Positions 52,276 through 64,000 of a stretch of 64,000 nucleotides of DNA are shown here, in pieces. Every line of letters begins with the position of its first letter. The stretch's first letter is position 1. This stretch comes from Salinisphaera sp. LB1. Lineage in GTDB: Bacteria > Pseudomonadota > Gammaproteobacteria > Nevskiales > Salinisphaeraceae. The position numbers were made by a program, and so were the translations under genes. The notes below the pieces were generated by a model. It made no database searches. It was not told where the DNA came from and was given only the letters and a program-made list of their open reading frames with translations. Where the stretch lies: positions 2,046,001-2,110,000 of the forward strand of contig NZ_CP029488.1 of assembly GCF_003177035.1 (NCBI RefSeq), written 5' to 3'.

Positions 52276-53059
52276 GGCGCATCAATCGATCGGATATTGA
52301 CAAACAGGCGGCGCGACAACGCACACCGCGAGGGGCTTGGGGCATCAACCCCGCCAGCGCTGCACCCGCCATCGCCAGGCCGCGTCGAAGGCGCGGTTTA
52401 CGGCTTGTTTCGATCGATTTGAAGTCATCTTCGCGGTCATCTCGGGTACCGACGCCATAGCCGTCGTTATTTGCTAGGGCCTGTTGCCGTTTCGTGCGAG
52501 TCCGCGCCAAGCGCTGTTTTGCGGCAAGACGAGGCGCTCGCACGAAACGGCAACAGGCCCTAATGCTGACTGAAATTTCCCGGCTTGCCAAATCCCGATG
52601 GCGGAACAGCGGCGTGCGGGGTCCTGGTAACGAATCATCCGCGTGTCGTGGGTATGCCGGGTTGGCTCTCAACGGAGGTCCGGTGTCGGGGAGCCGCGCT
52701 CCGGCGATCCTTGCATCGACACGGGTAATACTAAAGTCAGATGGAATATCAAATGAAAAAAGCGGCTCAATGGTGGGGCCCTAATCAATGTTTTGATCGC
52801 CCTGTAAACATCGGCAAAGCCGAGGTATAGCCTGGATCCGTACCGAGCCCTGGCCTGATGGGAGTGATTGAGATACAGAACACGGATGCAGGGGGCGCAT
52901 GCCGTTACAGCCGGCCAAGCGCAGTCTGCAACCGGGAGACGGAAAAAGACTCTTGCGTTCGAGTGTGATCGACATCGGATCGATTGAATTCAAAAGCCGC
53001 CGAGTGGCTTGAGCGTAAGCCGCGCAGAGACCGGATCGATAGCTGTTCGAGGTTCGTTC
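52276..53059. promoter_or_regulatory. 784-bp gap between trpE and CUT1 importer
   Basis: No convincing gene. From left to right it holds the trpE upstream region, the 88-bp palindromic element (52475-52562), an AT-rich stretch at 52730-52800 with the motif ATATCAAATGAAAAA (52746-52760), and the leader of the importer ATPase gene. The trp promoter could not be placed by eye. Confidence 0.5.
52475..52562. repeat. 88-bp MITE-like element with 26-bp perfect inverted repeats
   Basis: The left arm begins TAGGGCCTGTTGCCGTTT (52475-52500) and the right arm is its exact complement (52537-52562), around a 36-bp core. Both ends begin with TA next to GGGCCTGTTG, consistent with TA target duplication and ends of the IS5/IS427 or IS630 kind. 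It has no coding capacity. Confidence 0.7.
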
Positions 53060-54253
53060 ATGGCAGTGGTCAAGCTCGAAAATGTCTGCAAGTACTTCGG
53101 CAGCACGCCAGCCGTGCAGGACTTCAATCTCGAATCGTGCGAGGGGGAGTTCGTGGTATTGGTCGGCCCGTCCGGCTGCGGCAAGTCCACCACGCTGCGC
53201 ATGATCGCCGGTCTCGAGGATATGGACAGCGGGACGCTGAGTTTCGACGGTCGCCCAATGCAGGACGTCCCGGTTCAGGATCGCGAAATTGCCATGGTTT
53301 TCCAGAGCTATGCGCTCTATCCCCATCGCAATGTATTCGACAACCTCGCATTCGCCCTCAAATTGCGGCGTTTTCCGAAGACGGAAATCGAGCGGCGAGT
53401 CCGGGCCGCCGCGCAGACGCTGGACATCGAACCCTTGTTGGCGCGCAAACCACGGGAGCTGTCCGGCGGACAGCGCCAGCGCGTTGCGCTGGGCCGGGCC
53501 ATCGTCCGCGAGCCCGAGGTTTTCCTCATGGACGAGCCGTTGTCCAATCTGGATGCCAAGCTGCGGGTGAGCATGCGCGCGGAGATCGCCAAGCTGCACC
53601 GACGCATCGGTGTGACCACCTTCTATGTAACCCACGACCAGGTCGAGGCGATGACCATGGGCGATCGCATCGTGGTCATGAACGGTGGTGTGATCCAGCA
53701 GGTCGCCACGCCCCTGGCGCTCTACGACGAACCGGTGAACAGCTATGTCGCCGGATTCATCGGTAACCCGCCCATGAACTTCCTGTCGGCCGAAGTCGGC
53801 GACGACGCGACGCGGATTCATGGGCCCGGATTCGATTTCCAGATCGAGCCTTCTTTGCAGCAACGGCTGGCGTCGCTCGACAGTCGCGAAGTGACGATCG
53901 GATTCCGGCCCGAACACCTAAAGCCGTCGCCAGTCGATGCGCAGTCCGTCATGGGCACGGTGCAGGGCACGATCGAACTGGTCGAGCAGATGGGCTCGAC
54001 CACCGATATCCGATTCGTGGTCGACGGCTATCCGCTGATTGCGGAATTGCCGCGTGATCAAACGCTTAGGGTCAAGGAATCCATTGAGCTCAGTCTGCTG
54101 GAAGGGCGGCTGCATGTATTCGATAAAGAGTCCGGCAAGCGTCTCAATGCCAATGCCGCCGTATCACGAAACCAAGCCGACTCGATCCGCTCAATGCAGC
54201 CAAACGGCGAGCTGGCCTCGGTCGGAACCGACATGCGCTTCCGACCCGACTGA
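53060..54253 (+). CDS. CUT1-type ABC importer ATPase (UgpC/MalK-like)
   Basis: 397-aa ATPase of the MalK/UgpC type for sugar, polyol or glycerol-phosphate uptake. Walker A VGPSGCGKST (about residue 36), Q-loop VFQSYALYPH, signature LSGGQRQRVALGRA and Walker B VFLMDEPLSNLDAK are intact; the C-terminal third is the MalK-like regulatory (TOBE) region, which here carries a 35-residue extra tail. The start at 53060 is preceded by CGAGG; earlier frames have no site. First gene of the second carbohydrate locus, followed by binding protein and two permeases, so a complete importer with a shared single ATPase homodimer. Confidence 0.9.
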   Translation: MAVVKLENVCKYFGSTPAVQDFNLESCEGEFVVLVGPSGCGKSTTLRMIAGLEDMDSGTLSFDGRPMQDVPVQDREIAMVFQSYALYPHRNVFDNLAFALKLRRFPKTEIERRVRAAAQTLDIEPLLARKPRELSGGQRQRVALGRAIVREPEVFLMDEPLSNLDAKLRVSMRAEIAKLHRRIGVTTFYVTHDQVEAMTMGDRIVVMNGGVIQQVATPLALYDEPVNSYVAGFIGNPPMNFLSAEVGDDATRIHGPGFDFQIEPSLQQRLASLDSREVTIGFRPEHLKPSPVDAQSVMGTVQGTIELVEQMGSTTDIRFVVDGYPLIAELPRDQTLRVKESIELSLLEGRLHVFDKESGKRLNANAAVSRNQADSIRSMQPNGELASVGTDMRFRPD

Positions 54254-54325
54254 TGCAACGGCTGCTCACGTCACATCTGCGTTCAGGCCAGGCCTGAGTA
54301 GACCCTCTAAGAGAAGGAGAAAGCG

Positions 54326-55903
54326 ATGAAAAGCGTAAGAAAAGCGGGCATGTGGACCCGGCGTCGTTTTGTACAGGGCGGCCTTGCGGGCATGGGGGCG
54401 GTGGCGCTGGCGCCGTTGGTGCTCCCGAAATACGCGTTTGCCGACACGATGCCCGATCCGGACAAGATCCTGGACACCATCAAACCCGGCAATTACGTGC
54501 CGAAAAAATACCTTGATCAGTTCGGGCTGGCTCCCGATGCAGTGCTTTGGGACCCGAAAAAAGACTGGATCCGGACGGCCGACTGGGAATCGATTCGTTC
54601 GCAGTTTGCCGGTCAGAGTGTGCGTTTCGCCGTAGGCGCCGCGGACGCGGACTCGGTCCAGTCGACGTTGAAACCTTTCCAGCAATTGTCCGGCATCAAC
54701 GTCGAGGTTATCTCGATTCCGGACGCGTCGTTCTATACCAAGGCGGTATCCGCTTTCGTTTCCGGTTCGGCCCGGTTCGATGCGCTGGAGTATTTCTCTC
54801 CCTGGCTGGGTGACTTCAGCGCGCCGGGGTTCCTGCATGCACTGGACGACTACGTCGACAAATACAAACTGCCGTACGAGGATTTCGCCGATACATACTG
54901 GCAGAACTACGCGCTGTATTCCGACAAGGGGGTGTTCGGCATTCCGTACGATTGCGACTTCAAGATGTTCATGGTGCGGAACAAGCAGTTCAAGCAATAC
55001 GTCGGTCATTCGGCGTCGCCCAAGGATACGGTCAAGACCTGGGACGACGTGGTGCATTTTGCCAAGACCCTCAACAAACCCGGCGCCCACATGAATGGCA
55101 TCGGCTACATGGGCGGCCGCGGGTTCTGGAGTACCTACACTTGGGAGCACATCGCGGCCCAGTATGGCCTCGATCTACTGGATTCCGACTGGAAGCCGCA
55201 GATTGTCAGCGATGCCGGAGTCAAGGCGGTCGAGATCCTTATCGAACTGAAGAAATATGCGCCGCAGGGCATAGAGAACTGGGGCTGGGCGGACGATCGC
55301 GCGGCCTGGCTCGGCGGCCAGTTGGCCATGAACATGGCGTGGCAGGATCAGGCCAACCAGGCCACGCGCCCCGACCAATCGCGGATTGCCGGCGACGAGC
55401 CTGTCGCCTTGTACGAGCCGCGCGGAACCGGTGCCGATGCGCGGTTTGCGCCGCCGAATCTGGCCGGGTCCACCGCCTCCATCGCGGCCAACGCCCGCAA
55501 TCCGGAGGCCGCGTTCGTGATGCTTGCATTCTTTACCACGGCATCGCTGCAGGCCATGAACGGCGCTGCCGCGAACGGTGTGGCGCCCGGTTTCATGTCG
55601 GTGATCAATAACGAGAATTTCCAGAAGATCATGCCGCCGGCCAAGATCTGGGGCGAGTCGCTGCCCTACGCCTGGGCCGAGCCCCGTATCCCGGGCATGT
55701 ATCAGCTTGAAACCGCGCTGGGTCTGGAGTTGAACAAAGCCATTGCCGGCGACGCCAAGCCGAAGGAGGCCTTGCAGACGGCGTCCAAACGTTGGGAGGA
55801 AATTCTGCGGCGCAAGGGATTCCATGGCGCCAAGCCGCCGGTCGATTACAGCGTGATACACGATCGGATGTGGTTGGGCCGCGGCAAGCAAGCGCCGGTC
55901 TAG
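54326..55903 (+). CDS. Large Tat-exported solute-binding protein of CUT1 importer
   Basis: 525-aa binding protein for the adjacent importer. The N-terminus has a twin-arginine signal (WTRRRFVQGGLAGMGAVAL) ending near AFA|DT, so it is exported folded. The mature part carries features of extracellular solute-binding family 1 (STLKPFQQLSGINVEVISI; FDALEYFSPWLGDF). It is about 80-100 residues longer than usual CUT1 binding proteins and nearer in size to GlpV-like glycerol-binding proteins. Substrate unknown. Strong AGAAGGAG site. It immediately precedes the first permease (2-nt gap). Confidence 0.87.
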   Translation: MKSVRKAGMWTRRRFVQGGLAGMGAVALAPLVLPKYAFADTMPDPDKILDTIKPGNYVPKKYLDQFGLAPDAVLWDPKKDWIRTADWESIRSQFAGQSVRFAVGAADADSVQSTLKPFQQLSGINVEVISIPDASFYTKAVSAFVSGSARFDALEYFSPWLGDFSAPGFLHALDDYVDKYKLPYEDFADTYWQNYALYSDKGVFGIPYDCDFKMFMVRNKQFKQYVGHSASPKDTVKTWDDVVHFAKTLNKPGAHMNGIGYMGGRGFWSTYTWEHIAAQYGLDLLDSDWKPQIVSDAGVKAVEILIELKKYAPQGIENWGWADDRAAWLGGQLAMNMAWQDQANQATRPDQSRIAGDEPVALYEPRGTGADARFAPPNLAGSTASIAANARNPEAAFVMLAFFTTASLQAMNGAAANGVAPGFMSVINNENFQKIMPPAKIWGESLPYAWAEPRIPGMYQLETALGLELNKAIAGDAKPKEALQTASKRWEEILRRKGFHGAKPPVDYSVIHDRMWLGRGKQAPV

Positions 55904-55905
55904 GG

Positions 55906-56841
55906 ATGTCTTCCGTACCGGCATCGACGGCTTCGGTCAAGTCGGCCCGCGCCGCTGCTCGGCGGCGCGGGCACGATCCACGCTGGCTGCCTTATGCGCT
56001 GGTCGCTCCGGCCGTGGCGTATCTGCTCGGCATTACGCTCTACCCGTTCATCTACGCGCTCTACAAGAGTTTCTATCAATCGTCTTTCACTATGCCGGGC
56101 ATGGATACGTTCGTCGGCCTCGGCAACTATGCGTCCCTGTTCAGGGACGGCGATTTTCTCGCCAGTGTCGTCAATACGGTCATCATTTCGGGTTCGTCGG
56201 TGCTGGCCGAGTTCGTTCTCGCACTCGGGCTCGCGGCATTGGTTTACCGCGACCCATGGGTCAAGGGATGGCGGATGATATTCCTCGCCCCGATGCTGTT
56301 CATGCCGTCGGCCGTGTCGTTTATGTGGAAGCTTCTGTTCGTGCCCGGGGCCAGCGTGGTCAACGATCTGATGGGGCATACGGGGGTATTGCCCGATGCA
56401 TTGAACTGGGTGGGCAACCCCGCTCTGGCACGGCTGTCGTTGGTCGTGGCGGACGTATGGGAATGGACGCCGTTTCTGTTTCTAATCTTCGTCGGCGCGC
56501 TCCAGGCACAAAACAGCGATCTGGAAGAGGCCGCGAAAGTGGACGGCGCGCGCAGCTGGCAGGTGTTCTGGCAGGTCAGTCTGCCGTTGCTTCGGCCGAT
56601 CATCGCGATCGCGCTCGTGCTGCGCGGCATCGACGCCGTGACGATGTTCACCAAGGTCTATGTGATGACACAGGGGGCACCGGCCGGCAATACCGAAACT
56701 GTGAGTTATTTCATCTATCGGGTCGGCTTCAACCAGTTTGATGCCGGCACCGCCGCCGCCGCGTCGGTGTTGGTGCTGATTGTCACGATCGGCGTCGCGC
56801 AGTATGCCGTGAGTCGTTACTTCCGACCGGCAATGGAGTAG
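55906..56841 (+). CDS. CUT1 ABC importer permease (MalF/UgpA-like)
   Basis: 311-aa inner-membrane permease with about six membrane helices. The basic N-terminal tail (KSARAAARRRGHDPRW) precedes the first helix LVAPAVAYLLGITLYPFIYA. The EAA loop that docks the ATPase reads EEAAKVDGARSWQVFWQVSL. The start at 55906 lies 2 nt after the binding-protein stop (TAGGGATG); longer frames are out of family. Confidence 0.9.
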   Translation: MSSVPASTASVKSARAAARRRGHDPRWLPYALVAPAVAYLLGITLYPFIYALYKSFYQSSFTMPGMDTFVGLGNYASLFRDGDFLASVVNTVIISGSSVLAEFVLALGLAALVYRDPWVKGWRMIFLAPMLFMPSAVSFMWKLLFVPGASVVNDLMGHTGVLPDALNWVGNPALARLSLVVADVWEWTPFLFLIFVGALQAQNSDLEEAAKVDGARSWQVFWQVSLPLLRPIIAIALVLRGIDAVTMFTKVYVMTQGAPAGNTETVSYFIYRVGFNQFDAGTAAAASVLVLIVTIGVAQYAVSRYFRPAME

Positions 56842-56844
56842 GCG

Positions 56845-57690
56845 ATGGCTTCATCTCGTCGTATGGCACAGCATTCGAGCCGTATCGGCCGCTATCTGCT
56901 GCTGGCGTGCTGGGCGTTTTTCTGCTTGCTGCCGATTGTCTGGCTGGTGACGATCAGCCTGCGTGGGCGCACGGAAACCATGGTCAACCCGCCGATCTAC
57001 TGGCCGCATTTCACACTCGATGCCTGGCGGGACACTTTCGACAACTGGCCGATGTGGGCGTATCTGCGCAACACATTCATTGCCGCTATCGGCAGTGTAT
57101 TGATCGATCTCCTGCTGGCGATCCCGGCGGCTTACAGCCTCGCGCGCTTCCAGTATCGAGGCCGCGATCAGATCGGGTTCTATATCCTGAGTACGCGCAT
57201 GATCGTCCCGGCAGCCGTGGCTCTGCCCATATACATTCTATTCAAGAATTTGCATCTGCTGGACAATCCCGCGGCGCTGATGCTGATCTACGCCGCGATC
57301 AATCTATCCATCGTGACCTGGGTCATTCGCAGCTACATGATCGAGGTGCCGCGCGAGATCGAAGAGGCGGCGCGCGTCGACGGAGCCCGTTCGATCGGCA
57401 TTCTGATGCGGGTCACGCTGCCATTGTCGATCTCCGGTGTGGTCACCGCCTCCATTCTGGCGCTCATATTCGCCGTCAACGAATTCCTGTTCACGCTGCT
57501 GATTTCGTATACAGATCGCGCGCAGACGTTATCGGTGGGCCTGGCCATGTTCACCGGTGGGTCGAAAGGGATCATCTACAACGATATTGCCGTCGTTGCG
57601 CTGGTCACGTTTGTGCCGATGTTCATTCTGACGCTGCTCATCCAGCGCCACCTGTCCCGGGGGCTGACCATGGGCGCATTGAAAAATTAA
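56845..57690 (+). CDS. CUT1 ABC importer permease (MalG/UgpE-like)
   Basis: 281-aa second permease, six helices. Docking loop EEAARVDGARSIGILMRVTL and the C-terminal helix VALVTFVPMFILTLLIQRHL with the terminal RGLTMGALKN are standard for MalG-type subunits. It follows the first permease by 3 nt. The ATPase, binding protein and both permeases therefore form one operon. Confidence 0.92.
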   Translation: MASSRRMAQHSSRIGRYLLLACWAFFCLLPIVWLVTISLRGRTETMVNPPIYWPHFTLDAWRDTFDNWPMWAYLRNTFIAAIGSVLIDLLLAIPAAYSLARFQYRGRDQIGFYILSTRMIVPAAVALPIYILFKNLHLLDNPAALMLIYAAINLSIVTWVIRSYMIEVPREIEEAARVDGARSIGILMRVTLPLSISGVVTASILALIFAVNEFLFTLLISYTDRAQTLSVGLAMFTGGSKGIIYNDIAVVALVTFVPMFILTLLIQRHLSRGLTMGALKN

Positions 57691-57981
57691 GCGCCGTACC
57701 GACCGCCACCGTGCCGCCGTCCATGCCGGCAACGTCCCGTATTTCAGGTTTCTGTCCTTCACATGATCAACAAGAAAACGCGAGGCGATTGCTGAAAAGA
57801 AGTTGACAGGGGAAAATACGGCGAAGATACTTATGATAATTCATATATCAAAAGATAAAACGAATTGGCTGAAAGAATCATCGCGGTCGCCGATCGAGAC
57901 CGAACGATCACGGCGCCATAGTGCGAGCGGCATCATCGGTTCCGACCGGTATATGACCGGTGGGTCTACTGGAGCACCTCA
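57691..57981. promoter_or_regulatory. 291-bp regulatory gap inside the second carbohydrate locus
   Basis: Separates the importer from the catabolic genes on the same strand. Contains a sigma70-like promoter (57803-57831), the AT-rich motif ATATCAAAAGATAAAA (57845-57860) that resembles 52746-52760, and paired ACCGGT hexamers (57945-57961). No terminator hairpin was identified. Confidence 0.6.
57803..57831 (+). promoter_or_regulatory. Candidate promoter of the COG4091-E1-E2 operon
   Basis: TTGACA (57803-57808, 6/6) and GATACT (57826-57831, 4/6) with 17-bp spacing. The following ATATCAAAAGATAAAA motif overlaps the expected start region, a likely operator position. Confidence 0.5.
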
Positions 57982-59298
57982 ATGAGTGACAGCCATAGTC
58001 TTCTGGCTGACCTGGAGCGTCGGGAGCGTGAAGGCAAGCCCGTCACCATCGGCTTGGTCGGCACCGGCGAAATGGGTACGGATATCGTTACCCAGGTGAG
58101 TCTGATGCCCGGCGTTCGTATCGGCGCGATCGTCGAATTGGAGCTGGCCGCGGCACGCAAGGCGATCGCGGTCGCGGGATTGGCCGACGGCGTCGGGCGC
58201 GAAGCCGACGATACGGCCACGGTGCCGAAAATCATTGCCGCCGGTGGCATTGCGCTGACTTCGAATCATCTCGACGTATGCGATTGCGAAGCGATCGATG
58301 TGCTCATCGATGCCACGGGATCGCCGTCATTCGGGGCGCGCCTTGCCATCGACGCGTTCGATCACGGTAAGCATCTGGTTCTCATGAACGTGGAAACCGA
58401 CGTCACCATCGGCCCGCTGTTGCGGCGCCGAGCCGATGAAGCCGGGGTGGTCTATACACTCGGCGCCGGCGATGAACCCAGTGCCACGATGGAGCTGGTG
58501 CGCTTCGTACAGACCCTGGGCTATCCGATCGTCGCGGCGGGCAAGGGGAAGAACAACAAGTTCGATCGATACGCTGTACCTCGGGATTACGAAGAAGAGG
58601 CGGCGCGCCGCAACATGAATCCGCGCATGCTCGTCGAATTCGTCGACGGCTCCAAGACCATGATCGAGATGGCCGCGCTGGCCAATGCCACCGGACTCGT
58701 GCCAGACGTGCCCGGCATGCACGGTGTCGATGCCGGGCTGGCCGAGTTGCCCGGCCTGCTGTGCCCGCGCGAGGACGGCGGTCTGCTGTCGCGCCGGGGC
58801 GTGGTGGATTTCTCGGTCGGCCGCGGCGTGGCGCCCGGCGTGTTCGTGATCGTCGAAACACGCCATCCCCGGATTCGTGAGCGCCTGGAGGATCTGCATG
58901 TGGGCAAGGGCTGGTATCACCTGTTCCATCGGCCCTATCACCTCACCAGCCTCGAAGTGCCGCTGTCGGCGGCCGAAGCCGTGCTCTACCGCAAAGCGGC
59001 CATGCAACCGCTGCCCCGGCGCTACGCCGAAGCCACCGCGGTGGCCAAGCGCGATCTGCAGCCGGGCGAGACGCTGGATGCGATTGGTGGCTACGCCTAC
59101 TTCGGTACGATTCTGTCGGCCGCGGATGCCCGGGAGCACCGCGCGATTCCGCTGGGCCTATGTGAAGGCGCCCGGGTGACGCAGTCGATCAAGGCCGACG
59201 AATATCTGACCTATGCCAACTGCACGCCCGACGCCGATCAGCCGATCGTGCGTCTCCGGCACGAGCAGGACGAACTGCTCGAACCCATCGCGAACTGA
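57982..59298 (+). CDS. COG4091-type NAD(P)-dependent oxidoreductase with SAF domain
   Basis: 438-aa protein resembling homoserine dehydrogenase in its Rossmann half (VTIGLVGTGEMGTDIVTQVS, about residues 20-39; IDATGSPSFGARLAIDA near 110) and carrying a C-terminal SAF-like domain (about 340-430; AVAKRDLQPGETLDAIGG). Such proteins (COG4091) are often misannotated as FlgA. No substrate is established that I know of. Conserved ETDVTIGPLLRRRADEAGVV and GAGDEPSATMELVRF lie between. It is followed within 17 nt by E1 and E2 genes of a TPP-dependent complex, so it probably prepares or reduces an intermediate handled by that complex. Confidence 0.75.
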   Translation: MSDSHSLLADLERREREGKPVTIGLVGTGEMGTDIVTQVSLMPGVRIGAIVELELAAARKAIAVAGLADGVGREADDTATVPKIIAAGGIALTSNHLDVCDCEAIDVLIDATGSPSFGARLAIDAFDHGKHLVLMNVETDVTIGPLLRRRADEAGVVYTLGAGDEPSATMELVRFVQTLGYPIVAAGKGKNNKFDRYAVPRDYEEEAARRNMNPRMLVEFVDGSKTMIEMAALANATGLVPDVPGMHGVDAGLAELPGLLCPREDGGLLSRRGVVDFSVGRGVAPGVFVIVETRHPRIRERLEDLHVGKGWYHLFHRPYHLTSLEVPLSAAEAVLYRKAAMQPLPRRYAEATAVAKRDLQPGETLDAIGGYAYFGTILSAADAREHRAIPLGLCEGARVTQSIKADEYLTYANCTPDADQPIVRLRHEQDELLEPIAN

Positions 59299-59315
59299 CG
59301 GCAGGATTTTTGACC

Positions 59316-60320
59316 ATGGCGACCCGGAATAAAACGTCTGCATCGACGGCCGCATCCACGCTGTCGGATTTGTCCGCCGAGCGTCAGCTCGCGCTGCTGG
59401 AGCAGATGCAGCTGATTCGTGCCTTCGACGAGAAAGTGGACAAGCTGTATGCCAAGGGGGCCATGCACGGGACGGCGCATTTCTGTGTCGGGCAGGAAGC
59501 CTGTGCCGTGGGCACGCTATGTCATCGCCACGATGGCGACGTGATCACCGGCACGCACCGAGGGCACGGTCATGCCATCGCATTCGGTCTGGATCCGTAT
59601 CGGATGGCGGCGGAGCTGTTGGGCAAGGCCACCGGCTACTGCGGCGGCAAGGGCGGCAGCATGCATATCGCCGACGTCCAGGCCGGCATGCTCGGGGCCA
59701 ATGGCATCGTGGGCGGCAGCATGGGCATCGCCTGCGGGGCGGCGTTCGCCTTCAAACAGCGGGCCCAGGATCATGTTGCGGTCTGTTTTTTCGGCGACGG
59801 CGCGGTCCAGGAAGGCATTTTCAACGAAACACTGAATCTGGCTTCGGTGTGGCAACTGCCGGTGCTGTTCGTGTGCGAGAACAATCACTACGCCATGTCG
59901 CTTTCGGCTGAAAAGGCCACCGCCGGCGGCAGTATCGCGAACCGTGCGGCCAGCTACGGCATGCCGGCCGAAGCCGTGGACGGCATGGACCTGGAAGCGG
60001 TGTACACGGCGGGCGCGCGCTTGATGAACGGCTGTCGCGGCGCCGGGCCGGCCCTGATCGAGACCATCACCTATCGCTATCTCGGCCATTCCAAAAGCGA
60101 TGCCAATCGCTATCGCACGCGCGAGGAAATCGCCGAGTGGCGCGCCAACGATCCTATCGAACGCTATATCCGAACGCTGACCGAGCGCGGTCTGCTGGAC
60201 GACGAGCGCAGCCAGGCCCTGGTGGAGGCCGCCGCGGACCAGGTCGAGCAGGCGTTCGGCCGCGCCGAGCGCGATCCCGAGCCCGAGTTGTCGAGCGCGC
60301 TGGAGGATGTCTATGCCTGA
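59316..60320 (+). CDS. TPP-dependent dehydrogenase E1 alpha subunit (AcoA-like)
   Basis: 334-aa alpha subunit of a thiamine-diphosphate 2-oxoacid/acetoin dehydrogenase-type complex. The cofactor motif begins CFFGDGAVQEGIFNETLNL and ends in CENN; other family marks are GTHRGHGHAIAFGLDP and YRYLGHSKSDANRYRT. Start ATG 59316 is preferred (GGA about 9 nt before) to a TTG at 59310. Pyruvate-type E1 alpha and acetoin AcoA cannot be told apart reliably; the compact size and gene context favour an acetoin-like acyl-donor enzyme. Confidence 0.85.
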   Translation: MATRNKTSASTAASTLSDLSAERQLALLEQMQLIRAFDEKVDKLYAKGAMHGTAHFCVGQEACAVGTLCHRHDGDVITGTHRGHGHAIAFGLDPYRMAAELLGKATGYCGGKGGSMHIADVQAGMLGANGIVGGSMGIACGAAFAFKQRAQDHVAVCFFGDGAVQEGIFNETLNLASVWQLPVLFVCENNHYAMSLSAEKATAGGSIANRAASYGMPAEAVDGMDLEAVYTAGARLMNGCRGAGPALIETITYRYLGHSKSDANRYRTREEIAEWRANDPIERYIRTLTERGLLDDERSQALVEAAADQVEQAFGRAERDPEPELSSALEDVYA

Positions 60321-61314
60321 TGATGTCACGTTCCGCGAAGCGATGACGACGGTGCTGCGGGAAACGCTCGCCGCCGACGATGAAGCGTTTCTGCTCGGTG
60401 AGGATGTCGGCGTCTACGGCGGGGCCTTCGGTGTGAGCCGCGGGCTGGTCGAGGAGTTCGGCCCCGAGCGCGTGCTCGACACGCCATTGTCCGAAGCCGG
60501 CTTTACCGGTCTGGCCATAGGCGCGGCGGTCATGGGCATGCGGCCGATCGTCGAGATCCAGTTCTCGGATTTCATCACCCACTGCATGGACCAGTTGGTG
60601 AATCAGGCCGCGAAACTGCGCTACATGTTCGGCGGGGCGGCGTCGGTACCGCTGGTATTGCGTACGCCGGGCGGGGCGGGCACCGGCGCGGCGGCCCAGC
60701 ACAGCCAATCGCTGGAAGCCTGGTTCGTGCACGTGCCCGGTCTGAGGGTGGTGATGCCGTCCACCCCGGCGGATGCGCAGGGGCTGTTCCGCGCCGCCAT
60801 GGCCGATCCCAATCCGGTACTGTTCTATGAACACAAACTGCTCTACAACACCAAGGGCAGCCTGCCGGATCAGCCGGAAACCTATGAAATCGGTCGGGCA
60901 CGCTGTACCCGCGAAGGCGGCGACGTAACCCTGGTCGCCGCGGGCCTGATGCACAACTACGCCCTCGAGGCGGCCGAAACGCTCGCCGGGCAGAACATCG
61001 ACGCCGAGGTGATCAATCTGCTGAGCCTGGCGCCTATGGACAGTGATCGAGTCTGCGAATCGGTGCGCAAGACCGGCCGTCTGGTGGTGGTCGAGGAAGA
61101 TGTCCGCACCGGCGGTTGGGGCGGCGAACTGGTCACGCGAGTCACCGAGGGCCCGGCGTTCTACGCCCTGGACCGGGCGCCCGCGCGCGTGGCCTGCGCG
61201 GATACGCCTATCCCCTACAACAAGCGTCTCGAAGCCTCGATCCGGCCATCGCCGGAGCGCATCGTCGAGGCCGTGACCCAGGTTCTGGCCAACGACCCGG
61301 GACGGTACGTCTGA
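60313..61314 (+). CDS. TPP-dependent dehydrogenase E1 beta subunit (AcoB-like)
   Basis: 333-aa beta subunit pairing with the preceding gene. Transketolase-like marks: LGEDVGVYGGAFGVSRGL, DTPLSEAGFTGLAIGAAVMG, VPLVLRTPGGAGTGAAAQHS and LVVVEEDVRTGGWGGELVT. The start at 60313 is 6 nt after GGAGG (60302-60306); the ATG at 60307 abuts that site and is less likely. Overlaps the alpha gene by 8 nt and the E2 gene by 1 nt. Confidence 0.88.
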   Translation: MPDDVTFREAMTTVLRETLAADDEAFLLGEDVGVYGGAFGVSRGLVEEFGPERVLDTPLSEAGFTGLAIGAAVMGMRPIVEIQFSDFITHCMDQLVNQAAKLRYMFGGAASVPLVLRTPGGAGTGAAAQHSQSLEAWFVHVPGLRVVMPSTPADAQGLFRAAMADPNPVLFYEHKLLYNTKGSLPDQPETYEIGRARCTREGGDVTLVAAGLMHNYALEAAETLAGQNIDAEVINLLSLAPMDSDRVCESVRKTGRLVVVEEDVRTGGWGGELVTRVTEGPAFYALDRAPARVACADTPIPYNKRLEASIRPSPERIVEAVTQVLANDPGRYV

Positions 61315-62573
61315 TGGCCGTGCTGGTCGAAGTGCCGCATATCGGCATGGATCTGGCCGAGGTTACCGTGGTCGAATGGCTGGTGGCCGAGGGCGACCAT
61401 GTCGCTAAGGGCGATCCGATCCTGACGATCGAAACCGACAAGACCAACCACGATCTGGAGGCCGAGGTCGCCGGCATCATCCGCCACTTGCGCGGCAAAG
61501 CGGGCGATGTGATTGCCGTGGGCGAGCCGCTGGCCTGGATCGTGTCGGAAGACGAGCCGGCACCGGCGTTGCCGGATGTGGCGGCCGATAAGGCCGAGCT
61601 GCCCGTATCGGTCGAGGCGCCGGTGTCTGTAGATGCAGACTCGCGCGTCGAGCCGATGGGCGATTCGGACGCCGCCGACCGCGAGCCGGCGCCCGAGTCC
61701 GCACCGAAGAATGGCGGCGCAGCACGTGGTCTGGCCTCGCCGGCTGCACGACGCGAGGCGGCCGCTCAGGGCCTGGATATCCGCGATGTGGCGGGCAGTG
61801 GCCCGAACGGCGTGGTGTACCAGGCGGATGTTCGCGCCCTCGCGGGCCGGCCCGCCGATACGTCGGTTCGCGAGCGCGCATCGGAGGCCTCCGCCGCGGG
61901 CGAAATCGTGGCGCTAAGCCGCGTCCAGCAGCTGACCGGCGACCGCACCCAGCGCAGCTTCCGCGATATCCCGCATTTCTATCTCGAGCGGGAGCTGGAG
62001 ATCGATGCGCTGCTCGACTTGCGCACCGAGCTGGCGGCGAGAATCGAGCACAAGCCGAGCCTCGGTTGCCTGCTCTGTTTTGCCATCGCGCGCACGCTGG
62101 CCGACCACCCCCGGCTCAACGGCCGACTGATCGGCGCCGATCGGCTCGAACTCCAGCATCAGGTTCACCTGGGCGTGGCGGTTGCCGGCAAGGATGGGTT
62201 GCTCGTTCCTGTGATTCGCGATGCTGGCCGGATAGCGTTCAAGACATTCGCTGAACGCTATCGCGGGCTAACCCGGCGGGCCGTGGCTCGTGAGTTGGCT
62301 GGCGACGAGATGACCGGCGGCACGTTCACCGTATCCAATCTCGGCATGTTCGGCATCGACCGTTTCAACGCCATTATCAACGCGCCGCAGTCCGCGATCA
62401 TCGCCTTGGGCCGGCGTCGTACCGTGCCGGAGTGGGCGAATGGCGAATGGAAGCCTAAGATGGTGGTTTCGGCCACGTTGTCGGTCGATCATCGGGTCGC
62501 GGACGGTGTCGACGGCGCGCGTTTTCTGGCCGATCTGGCCGAGCGCAGTCGGCATTGGTCGTTGCTGTTGTAA
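61314..62573 (+). CDS. Lipoyl-dependent E2 acyltransferase (dihydrolipoamide acyltransferase)
   Basis: 419-aa E2 core of the TPP complex. Lipoyl domain at 1-80 with lipoyl Lys43 in TIETDKTNHDLEAEV; E1/E3-binding domain about 140-180 (SPAARREAAAQGLDIRDVAG); catalytic domain from about 200 with the His-Asp motif SVDHRVADGVDGARF near the end. A Glu/Asp/Pro-rich linker lies between the first two domains. No E3 (dihydrolipoamide dehydrogenase) is found nearby, so the general cellular E3 probably serves. The substrate acyl group is unknown; the Val-rich start MAVLVEVPHIGMDL is as in AcoC/BkdB types. Confidence 0.85.
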   Translation: MAVLVEVPHIGMDLAEVTVVEWLVAEGDHVAKGDPILTIETDKTNHDLEAEVAGIIRHLRGKAGDVIAVGEPLAWIVSEDEPAPALPDVAADKAELPVSVEAPVSVDADSRVEPMGDSDAADREPAPESAPKNGGAARGLASPAARREAAAQGLDIRDVAGSGPNGVVYQADVRALAGRPADTSVRERASEASAAGEIVALSRVQQLTGDRTQRSFRDIPHFYLERELEIDALLDLRTELAARIEHKPSLGCLLCFAIARTLADHPRLNGRLIGADRLELQHQVHLGVAVAGKDGLLVPVIRDAGRIAFKTFAERYRGLTRRAVARELAGDEMTGGTFTVSNLGMFGIDRFNAIINAPQSAIIALGRRRTVPEWANGEWKPKMVVSATLSVDHRVADGVDGARFLADLAERSRHWSLLL

Positions 62574-62638
62574 GTGCGGCGGTAGCCCTCGCTGTCATCG
62601 GCAACGGCCCCTAACGCTCGGGCGACGGTTGGCGCGGG

Positions 62639-63616
62639 TTATGTCTCCAGCGCCGAGGCGGCGTTGCCATGCGGCTTCTGCAGCGGCCAGTTGCTCATGA
62701 TCTTGAGCGTGTGCTCGTACGATCGGACGCCGGCCTGAGAGCCCAGGCCGGTGGCGTTGAGGGCCGACGTCGCCTGCGCAAAACGGACCGTGTCCTGGGG
62801 GTCGAGACCGTGGCAGAGGCCGGTAGCAAAACCGGCGTTGAATACATCGCCGCAACCACAGGTGCACACCACCTCGACTCCGAATGGCGGCTGATGGAAG
62901 CTCGTGCCGTCGGCATGGTGATAATAGGCGCCTTCCGCGCCCATCGTCAGCGTCACGCAGCCGACGCCGCGATCCAGGAAAAACGCAGCGATCTCTTTGT
63001 GCTGTTGCTTGCCCGACAGGGCGGCCGCTTCCTCGATCGATGGCAGAAAATAATCCGTGTAGGGCATCAGCCCCTCGATCAGATCCAGATCCTCGGGCCG
63101 GCTCGCAAATACGTCCAGCAGGGTGATGCAGCCGCGACGTTTGGCTTCCTTGAGCAGGGCGACATTCGGCGCACCGTCCATGCGATCCATGAGGCCGACC
63201 CCGCCGAGCAGCAGCACCCGGCAATCCAGGACCTGGTCGCGCATGGCCGCGGTGACTTCGAAATGGGCGGTGGCCCCTTTCATGTGCAGCGCCGGGCGCT
63301 CGCCGTTGGGACGCGTAGTGACGATCGAAGAGGAGGTGCAGACGTCGGGGCAGCGCTGCATGGTGGCGGTATCGACGCCGAAATGCGCCAGTCGCTGAAG
63401 TACCCAGTCGCCCATCAGATCGTTGCCGACCCCACCCACGGCCAGCGTCTTCAAGCCGTAGCGGCTGGCTGCGATGACCGCGCTTCCGGCCGCGCCCGAT
63501 ACGGCCAGGGTGATCTCGTCGATAAAGTAGGTGCCGCCGCCGGGCGGCAACGCCGATACCGGCCGACCCAGGCAATCGAAGGTGATAAACCCCATCGAGG
63601 TCAGGTCATATCGCAT
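62639..63616 (-). CDS. PfkB-family carbohydrate kinase
   Basis: 325-aa ribokinase-like sugar kinase. Family motifs are MGFITFDCLGRPVSALPPGG at the start, GSAVIAASRYGLKTLAVGGVG and the catalytic block CTCGCGDVFNAGFATGLCHG, where GCGD replaces the usual GAGD. Substrate unknown; the neighbours suggest a sugar or sugar acid made or imported by the locus. The start at 63616 follows GAGGAG. It converges with the E2 gene (65 nt between stops) and lies downstream of the SorC regulator on the same strand. Confidence 0.8.
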   Translation of the reverse strand: MRYDLTSMGFITFDCLGRPVSALPPGGGTYFIDEITLAVSGAAGSAVIAASRYGLKTLAVGGVGNDLMGDWVLQRLAHFGVDTATMQRCPDVCTSSSIVTTRPNGERPALHMKGATAHFEVTAAMRDQVLDCRVLLLGGVGLMDRMDGAPNVALLKEAKRRGCITLLDVFASRPEDLDLIEGLMPYTDYFLPSIEEAAALSGKQQHKEIAAFFLDRGVGCVTLTMGAEGAYYHHADGTSFHQPPFGVEVVCTCGCGDVFNAGFATGLCHGLDPQDTVRFAQATSALNATGLGSQAGVRSYEHTLKIMSNWPLQKPHGNAASALET

Positions 63617-63851
63617 GATGGCGTTACTCCTCAGTCGGCACCTCGGGCCTGGGCGCGTCACTTGCGCCCGCGTGAAACGATGCCTGGGTTATTCTTTTGT
63701 TATTTTGTTTATCAATAGTAAATGAAGTTTCTTAGGGCGTGTCAATATGGCGATAATTCCGGCGCGAGTACATGCAGTGAAAACCATGTGGCATCGGTCG
63801 GGTGCGCAACGCGGCCGATGGGTGCCGGCGAAGACTGTGATTCGATGCCTT
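63617..63851. promoter_or_regulatory. Gap between SorC regulator and PfkB kinase genes
   Basis: 235 bp, markedly AT-rich in the middle (63685-63750). It holds the candidate kinase promoter and GTTATT-type direct repeats (63688-63712). No gene seen. Confidence 0.4.
63715..63745 (-). promoter_or_regulatory. Candidate promoter of the PfkB kinase gene
   Basis: On the minus strand, TTGACA (63745-63740) and TACTAT (63720-63715) are 19 bp apart, slightly long. Downstream lies an AT-rich run with repeated AATAAC (complement of GTTATT at 63688 and 63699) that could bind the regulator. Confidence 0.4.
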
Positions 63852-64000
63852 TCACGCCTGGCACAGCAGCTCGGCGGTCGCCTCATCGGTGACCAATACG
63901 TTCGCATATTGTGCCCGCAACACCGCGCTGATGATTTCGGTCTTGGCTTTGCCTCCCGACGCCAGCACCACACGTTCGATATCGCGCAGATCGGCGGGGT
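63852..64000 (-). CDS. SorC-family regulator, C-terminal part (cut by window end)
   Basis: The last 49 residues of a regulator read in from the right edge: the visible end contains VVLASGGKAKTEIISAVL and NVLVTDEATAELL, the closing part of the SorC sugar-binding domain (compare the regulator at 2775, which belongs to the same family). The DNA-binding half lies beyond the window. It is the likely regulator of the importer and catabolic genes in this locus. Confidence 0.75.
   Translation of the reverse strand, partial: PADLRDIERVVLASGGKAKTEIISAVLRAQYANVLVTDEATAELLCQA

Follow-up and report, generated by a model that had tools for sequence, protein, structure and literature searches.

The last eleven kilobases of the DNA analysed here, a window of 64,000 nucleotides from Salinisphaera sp. 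LB1 (contig NZ_CP029488.1, positions 2,046,001 to 2,110,000), carry a CUT1-type ABC importer, an oxidoreductase of the DXR-II family (also called DRL), the E1 alpha, E1 beta and E2 subunits of a thiamine pyrophosphate (TPP)-dependent complex, a PfkB-type kinase and a SorC-type regulator. We consider it likely that this locus forms an island for the breakdown of 2-C-methyl-D-erythritol (ME), or of a closely related 2-methyltetrol, in which the DXR step runs in reverse. We computed its gene content, protein families, conserved linkage and replacement of uptake modules, and found no sign of biosynthesis through 2-C-methylerythritol 4-phosphate (MEP) in the host.

In the proposed pathway, the CUT1 importer would take up ME and the PfkB kinase would phosphorylate it to MEP. 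DXR-II would then oxidise MEP to 1-deoxyxylulose-5-phosphate (DXP), an early step of isoprenoid synthesis taken backwards. E1 alpha/beta would load the acetyl unit of DXP onto TPP and E2 would transfer it via lipoate to CoA, so that acetyl-CoA and glyceraldehyde 3-phosphate are formed. The E3 component would come from elsewhere in the genome, and the SorC protein would sense a phosphate of the pathway and control both operons of the locus. We infer each of these reactions, the direction of the MEP to DXP step, the source of E3 and the substrate from the sequence data. The initial annotation of this DNA had already envisaged uptake of a polyol or branched sugar, its conversion by an oxidoreductase and a thiolytic cleavage of an acyloin by E1/E2; these parts of the idea stand, and its order of steps is revised below. 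It also knew of no described pathway with this set of genes. This holds among open-licence papers, in which we likewise found no catabolic pathway for methylerythritol.

The oxidoreductase had initially been labelled only as a COG4091 enzyme. Its Pfam family, structural match, diagnostic residues and tree position all identify it as a homologue of DXR-II, the enzyme that interconverts MEP and DXP, and hence a specific substrate can be named. It matches DRL_cat (PF21135) over its full length (220.6 bits, E = 1.6e-65) and aligns with Brucella DXR-II (PDB 3upl and 3upy) without gaps over 428 residues, of which 234 (55%) are identical (E ~1e-145). Residues that distinguish DXR-II from DLO1 and DLO2 have been defined in Brucella numbering (PMC3847144). 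The DRL of the window keeps nine of ten: K191, K193 and T229, which bind fosmidomycin and substrate, the dimer residues E174, F178, R320 and Y322, and also G121 and H250. In contrast to Brucella DXR-II, it has a Tyr at V351, is accompanied by an importer, a kinase, SorC and E1/E2, resides in a genome without sign of a MEP pathway, and is predicted to run from MEP to DXP. A plain homoserine dehydrogenase was rejected, as the sole PDB match of that kind scores 22 bits.

This assignment is further supported by a quick tree of 60 rows, in which the DRL of the window lies inside a fork of 23 rows with alphaproteobacterial DRLs (Shimodaira-Hasegawa-like approximate likelihood ratio support 100). The closest DRLs beyond Salinisphaera are alphaproteobacterial. 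Five rows labelled DLO by their residues fall outside this fork, but not on one side of a single branch. Clustering of open reading frames (ORFs) revealed a family of ~641 amino acids adjoining DRL in 12 alphaproteobacterial loci (L012-L016 and L018-L024), and its single scanned member (L013) is DXS (794.7 bits), which suggests that this branch of DRL handles DXP. T229 was found in none of the 29 DRL_cat rows from other gammaproteobacteria. Hence, DRLs of this type are uncommon among gammaproteobacteria, and an origin by acquisition is probable.

DXP (CH3-CO-CHOH-R) is an acyloin like acetoin, and by analogy could be cleaved by E1/E2 to acetyl-CoA and an aldehyde. That E1 enzymes can handle DXP is indicated by a mutant E. 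coli AceE that allows its formation (PMC3424233). Acetoin and pyruvate dehydrogenase (PDH) complexes share the architecture of E1 alpha, E1 beta and lipoyl-E2, and acyloin cleavage to CoA is predicted here as well. The complex of the locus differs from them in its ties to DRL, importer and SorC, in its predicted substrate DXP, and in the lack of an E3 among the ORFs of the locus, as noted initially and confirmed from the ORF list. E3 does adjoin the complex in Rm41, N324, Shinella, CFBP7129 and Priestia, and lpdA and lipA are also present in some rhizobial operons. E1 alpha scores below both NCBIfam equivalog cut-offs for PDH E1 alpha (343.4 versus 393.85 and 254.1 versus 411.35). E1 beta passes the subfamily cut-off of PRK09212 (357.1 versus 321) but does not reach that of the equivalog PRK11892 (350.2 versus 454). 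In a tree of E1 beta, which contained no acetoin dehydrogenase of tested function, the DRL-linked E1 sequences were not all one clade, and the deepest forks were weak (62%).

Alternatively, E1/E2 might simply be a conventional dehydrogenase complex for acetoin or pyruvate that has no connection with the adjacent sugar genes, in line with its domain make-up and with the PRK09212 match. We regard this as very unlikely, because E1 accompanies DRL in five phyla and on nearly all of the plasmids with the closest E1 alpha, as described below. Moreover, the host has two AceE genes elsewhere in its genome to supply PDH, which makes a housekeeping PDH role of the locus E1/E2 unlikely, and that role was rejected.

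The linkage of DRL and E1 was investigated in 80 genome loci kept from 141 relatives, with a stretch of up to 10 kb fetched on each side. A locus was called E1-linked if an E1 alpha or E1 beta match of at least 41% occurred within this stretch, and counts were made by hand. In 12 loci among L012-L024, E1 beta matched at only 23-28%, and these weak matches were excluded; the one scanned is DXS. DRL was E1-linked in 27 of the 80 loci, from Pseudomonadota, Aerophobota, Chloroflexota, Bacillota and Actinomycetota, and a SorC match was present in 20 of these 27. The initial annotation had considered whether the modules occur together only by chance; this is not so, since the pairing of DRL with E1 recurs across five phyla. 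In the host genome, Transket_pyr has three matches, the E1 beta of the locus being one of them, and simple arithmetic for a genome of 4.14 Mb gives a chance of ~0.1% that a Transket_pyr position falls within 2.5 kb of DRL. The gene grouping is more than chance. On the DRL tree, where the 23-row fork contains 11 E1-linked and 12 other rows, the E1-linked label changes 10 times, at least seven of them forced by starred branches, which indicates that the DRL-E1 pairing was gained or lost many times.

The E1-linked loci also differ from the others in their uptake genes. ORF clustering found the glucitol phosphotransferase system (PTS) IIC family in 18 of the 27 E1-linked loci and the IIA family in 19, versus none of the 53 others for either. 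The IspD family was found in 14 E1-linked and four other loci; as IspD uses MEP, its recurrence in DRL clusters was counted in favour of ME as the substrate. Cluster identities were checked with Pfam on one member each for IIC, IIBC, IIA, GutM, PTS enzyme I and SorC, and on three for IspD. Glucitol/sorbitol PTS clusters with DRL, as in Listeria, rhizobia and actinobacteria, have DRL, SorC and polyol uptake in common with the window, which has an ABC importer and PfkB kinase instead; the actinobacterial clusters with this PTS often contain IspD as well. The Listeria and Ligilactobacillus clusters examined combine DRL and glucitol PTS without E1/E2.

Plasmids showed the same exchange of uptake modules, and the gene set of the window also occurs on plasmids of rhizobia. 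A tblastn search with the DRL of the window yielded 111 plasmid records, and the best 38 (at least 54% identity) were cross-matched; the records are not independent, since they include six near-identical ones from Rhizobium and six from Aminobacter. E1 alpha lies directly beside DRL in 32 of the best 38. Five Phyllobacterium records and one Pararhizobium record make up the remainder; of these, one Phyllobacterium and the Pararhizobium were examined. Conversely, 33 of the best 34 plasmid records for E1 alpha carry DRL, with the Priestia DRL 8 kb away; in the exception, Rhizobium SSA_523, DRL is absent from the 19 kb taken. Uptake in the 32 DRL-E1 records was represented by a CUT1 binding protein in 13 and by glucitol PTS IIB (at least 76%) in 16, while three Shinella records had neither (the one examined has CUT2-type importers and a kinase). 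Among the best 30 of 563 records, relatives of the window kinase at 56-62% were found in 12 of the 13 CUT1 records, all three Shinella records and one of the 16 PTS records (Paracoccus versutus). Among the best 30 of 592 records for the binding protein, 13 reached 49-53%, all with DRL within 10 kb; the 17 others were at most 27%. The Agrobacterium CFBP7129 plasmid has the collinear order binding protein, permeases, ATPase, kinase, DRL, E1 alpha, E1 beta, E2, lpdA and lipA, with a divergent SorC.

The Gut PTS imports and phosphorylates polyols. The alternation of kinase and importer with this PTS therefore suggests that the substrate is a polyol that ends as its phosphate. It also makes it most likely that the kinase works at the start of the pathway, on the polyol as imported, rather than on a released or parallel sugar as proposed initially. 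The altered GCGD motif of the kinase, already noticed in the initial annotation, is real: the usual PfkB motif is DTxGxGD, and the window kinase keeps the Asp of GxGD but has Cys at the first position (CTCGCGD). This motif is common to five DRL-linked kinases, the window's included, and to the second of two such kinases in S. meliloti Rm41, one of which lies beside CUT1 and the other beside a CUT2-type importer. A Roseibium relative (47%), with no DRL in the 13 kb examined, has DTTGCGD. With respect to the identity of the polyol, the reference list of PMC3994034 contains a title (Testa 2004) that names the sorbitol PTS as the ME transporter of Salmonella.

The same enzymes would be needed if the imported compound were 1-deoxy-D-xylulose, which the kinase would convert to DXP for cleavage by E1/E2, with DRL serving only as an entry or overflow at MEP. 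Deoxyxylulose can be phosphorylated by xylulokinase. Yet this explanation would make DRL needless, whereas DRL is kept next to E1, and the PTS that replaces the importer is of the polyol (glucitol) type. Hence, it seems very improbable.

DXR-II is known as a biosynthetic enzyme (PMC3847144), and DRL might instead make MEP for isoprenoids, with E1 as an alternative DXP synthase in the manner of the mutant AceE. For this host, whose genome is one contig and 99.97% complete, a role of DRL in isoprenoid synthesis is unlikely and was rejected. Of the MEP pathway, the genome was searched for DXS, DXR-I, IspD and IspG, and no DXR-I and no IspG match was found. The three Transket_pyr genes are a transketolase (930 bits), a gene of the size of 2-oxoglutarate dehydrogenase E1 and the E1 beta of the locus, so that no DXS was found. 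IspD gave only weak matches (40.7 and 23.2 bits), in ORFs of GlmU-like and MobA-like size, and HMG-CoA reductase is present. The missing downstream pathway contradicts a biosynthetic role, which would also leave E2, importer, kinase and SorC without a place. Furthermore, DRL was not found in either of the two other genomes of the genus in the gammaproteobacterial survey. In spite of three small actinobacterial genomes that combine DRL, E1 and IspD without a DXR-I match, we consider this explanation extremely unlikely.

Rather, the distribution of DXR-I, investigated in 33 genomes, points to two uses of DXR-II. A separate DXR-I was found in 13 of 20 genomes tested from the 27 E1-linked loci, and in none of 13 alphaproteobacterial genomes in which the DRL fetched has no linked E1 (L011, L012 and L020 are outside the 13; one marginal match of 22.2 bits, just over the cut-off, was set aside). 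This would fit a biosynthetic use beside DXS in alphaproteobacteria and a catabolic use beside E1. The seven E1-linked genomes without a DXR-I match are Salinisphaera GH4, one Aerophobetes, two Chloroflexi and three small actinobacteria, and several of them are metagenome-assembled genomes (MAGs) or single-cell genomes of unstated completeness. IspD was tested in 11 genomes. In both Pseudonocardiaceae, the cluster copy is one of two strong copies, while in the three small actinobacterial genomes (L079, L082 and L085) the DRL/PTS cluster contains the sole strong copy. Possibly, imported methylerythritol feeds isoprenoid synthesis in these three.

Several observations weigh against ME catabolism through a reversed DXR step. 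The equilibrium of the DXR reaction favours MEP, and the pathway steps are predicted from genes rather than from biochemistry. No E1 of this kind was found in 53 of the 80 DRL loci, some of which are on short contigs. In L079, L082 and L085, where DXR-I has no match, DRL may be biosynthetic, and in some Microbacteriaceae the IspD adjacent to DRL may belong to the housekeeping IspDF site. DRL clusters of Chloroflexi hold an FGGY kinase and a FucI-like isomerase, and E1/E2 plus SorC sets exist without DRL in the stretch examined, which suggests that such complexes also have other substrates. Although K191, K193, T229 and R320 are kept in all 27 E1-linked DRLs, G121 is kept in only 15, H250 in 12 and E174 in 10 (53, 50 and 49 of the 54 others, respectively). 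These losses sit in actinobacteria, whose E1-linked DRLs may thus have another substrate. The replacement of V351 by Tyr recurs in the Salinisphaera MAG L008; V351 is conserved in most DXR-II enzymes but not obligatory (PMC3847144). Finally, Salmonella phosphorylates ME with an ATP-dependent kinase (PMC3994034), which weakens the argument that the PTS makes MEP.

Some of these observations would fit another imported polyol or branched sugar, such as a tetritol or pentitol, whose phosphate a drifted DRL would oxidise to another 1-deoxyketose or ketose phosphate for cleavage by E1/E2. CUT1 and Gut PTS are generic polyol systems, the contexts of DRL vary, many actinobacterial E1-linked DRLs have lost diagnostic residues, and E1/E2 plus SorC sets occur without DRL nearby. 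For the locus in the window we nevertheless think this rather unlikely, because its DRL retains the substrate-binding residues and has 55% identity with a DXR-II of solved structure, it shares a fork with alphaproteobacterial DRLs of which some lie beside DXS, and IspD recurs in the clusters.

If ME or a close 2-methyltetrol is indeed the substrate, the locus would provide genes for degrading compounds that are found in plants. 2-Methyltetrols are also known from forest aerosol as products of isoprene (PMC5559486). On balance, we favour the wider view that 2-methyltetrols, whose sources are the isoprenoid metabolism of plants and isoprene in the atmosphere, are degraded to acetyl-CoA and glyceraldehyde 3-phosphate by a widespread pathway present in five phyla, through a reversed DXR step and cleavage of DXP by a dedicated lipoyl-E1/E2 complex, and that many DXR-II enzymes regarded as a biosynthetic back-up are catabolic. 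This would explain why, puzzlingly, some bacteria with the mevalonate pathway alone, or with neither pathway, possess DXR-II (PMC3847144). It would also imply that a TPP/lipoyl complex can release acetyl-CoA from a sugar phosphate with no carbon lost as CO2, and DXR-II annotations would have to be divided into biosynthetic and catabolic ones by neighbourhood.

The layout of the locus is given in Table 1. ORF list and profile scans confirmed that the importer, oxidoreductase, E1 alpha, E1 beta, E2 and kinase (53060-63661) are intact ORFs of the families named initially, oxidoreductase apart. The importer operon (53060-57690) and the DRL-E1-E2 operon (57982-62573) are on the plus strand, followed by kinase and SorC on the minus strand. 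DRL and E1 alpha are 11 bp apart, and E1 alpha overlaps E1 beta, which in turn overlaps E2. The SorC regulator reported initially is real (339 amino acids, with a helix-turn-helix and a Sugar-bind domain, PF04198, of 203.8 bits), but lies mostly outside the window.

Table 1. Features of the putative methylerythritol locus, in window coordinates.
Feature	Position	Strand	Evidence and remarks
Operator-like motif (ATACTWANG, spacer, TATCAAA)	52728..52753	+	Upstream of importer operon; pattern matches
CUT1 ABC transporter ATPase, MalK/UgpC type	53060..54253	+	OB_MalK/TOBE_2; 44-46% to DRL-linked ATPases of three rhizobial plasmids
Solute-binding protein, 525 amino acids, predicted methylerythritol binder	54326..55903	+	SBP_bac_1; plasmid relatives
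ABC permease 1	55906..56841	+	BPD_transp_1; compared with plasmid loci
ABC permease 2	56845..57690	+	BPD_transp_1; compared with plasmid loci
Operator-like motif, second copy	57827..57852	+	Upstream of DRL operon; pattern matches
DXR-II/DRL homologue, predicted MEP to DXP	57982..59298	+	PF21135 DRL_cat and SAF; PDB 3upl match; residues; tree
TPP-dependent E1 alpha	59310..60320	+	E1_dh PF00676, 1.9e-83
TPP-dependent E1 beta	60307..61314	+	Transket_pyr/Transketolase_C PF02779/PF02780; above NCBIfam PRK09212 subfamily cut-off
E2 acyltransferase	61311..62573	+	Lipoyl (ETDK), E3-binding and 2-oxoacid_dh domains; DHRVADG motif
PfkB-type kinase, predicted methylerythritol 4-kinase	62639..63661	-	PfkB domain, CTCGCGD motif; in-frame ATG at 63616
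SorC-type regulator, 3' part only	63852..64000	-	Continues to 64871 outside the window

The whole set lies between rpe and trpE, which are ~12.6 kb apart in Salinisphaera sp. LB1. The aligned distance is 0.9 kb in a genome of the same genus (L133) and 56 bp in one of the same order (L134), while in another of the genus (L132) no rpe match was found within the 1.5 kb available. All ten genes are present in the Salinisphaera MAG L008, at 72-96% identity. Importer genes (0.58-0.61) and SorC (0.61) are lower in GC content than the DRL-E1-E2 genes (0.65-0.67; window 0.647), suggesting that these modules may have joined separately. The regions upstream of both operons share a 26-bp motif. Its exact pattern has two matches in the window (0.00 expected) and none elsewhere in it, and the motif recurs at the corresponding sites of L008 once the last base is loosened; the pattern was derived post hoc from its own two sites, via upstream alignment with L008, which makes the chance figure optimistic. 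Perfect palindromes were also searched upstream, and none was common to both operons.

To our knowledge, the erythritol pathway of Rhizobiales includes neither DRL nor E1/E2. Their erythritol catabolic loci (PMC3599248) resemble the locus described here in that they serve to take up and break down a tetritol, and they occur in similar kinds of bacteria. Beside the DRL operon of S. meliloti Rm41 (pRM41A, L129:2627-18001) lies a pair of glycerol-3-phosphate dehydrogenase/oxidase and zinc dehydrogenase genes, with a similar pair in Shinella and Agrobacterium. The same Rm41 stretch holds the CUT2-type importer, the second CTCGCGD kinase, an aldolase, an FGGY kinase and a transketolase-family gene. 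A Ligilactobacillus plasmid (L126) combines DRL and glucitol PTS with a sugar-binding-domain protein, a fructose-6-phosphate aldolase and a transketolase, and possibly the transketolase takes the place of the E1/E2 complex. In Chloroflexi (L047:7352-21038, L041 and L036; Pfam on L047), DRL occurs with SorC, a SIS protein, a zinc alcohol dehydrogenase, the FGGY kinase and FucI-like isomerase, DUF4432 and an M24 protein, which may represent a different DRL-based pathway for a polyol or sugar.

E1 complexes linked to sugar genes seem to form a broader group. E1 alpha/beta with a SorC-type regulator, and no DRL match in the stretch examined, were found on a C. difficile plasmid (L142), on an Arthrobacter plasmid (L145) and in Rhizobium SSA_523 (L141). 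The Arthrobacter plasmid has a fused E1 alpha/beta and a lipoyl protein, together with a class II aldolase and an FGGY kinase. On a Thermus (L143) and an Azospirillum plasmid (L144), an E1 alpha/beta pair, with no E2 annotated in the stretch examined, is followed by tripartite ATP-independent periplasmic (TRAP) transporter genes; in Thermus, one small ORF lies in between.

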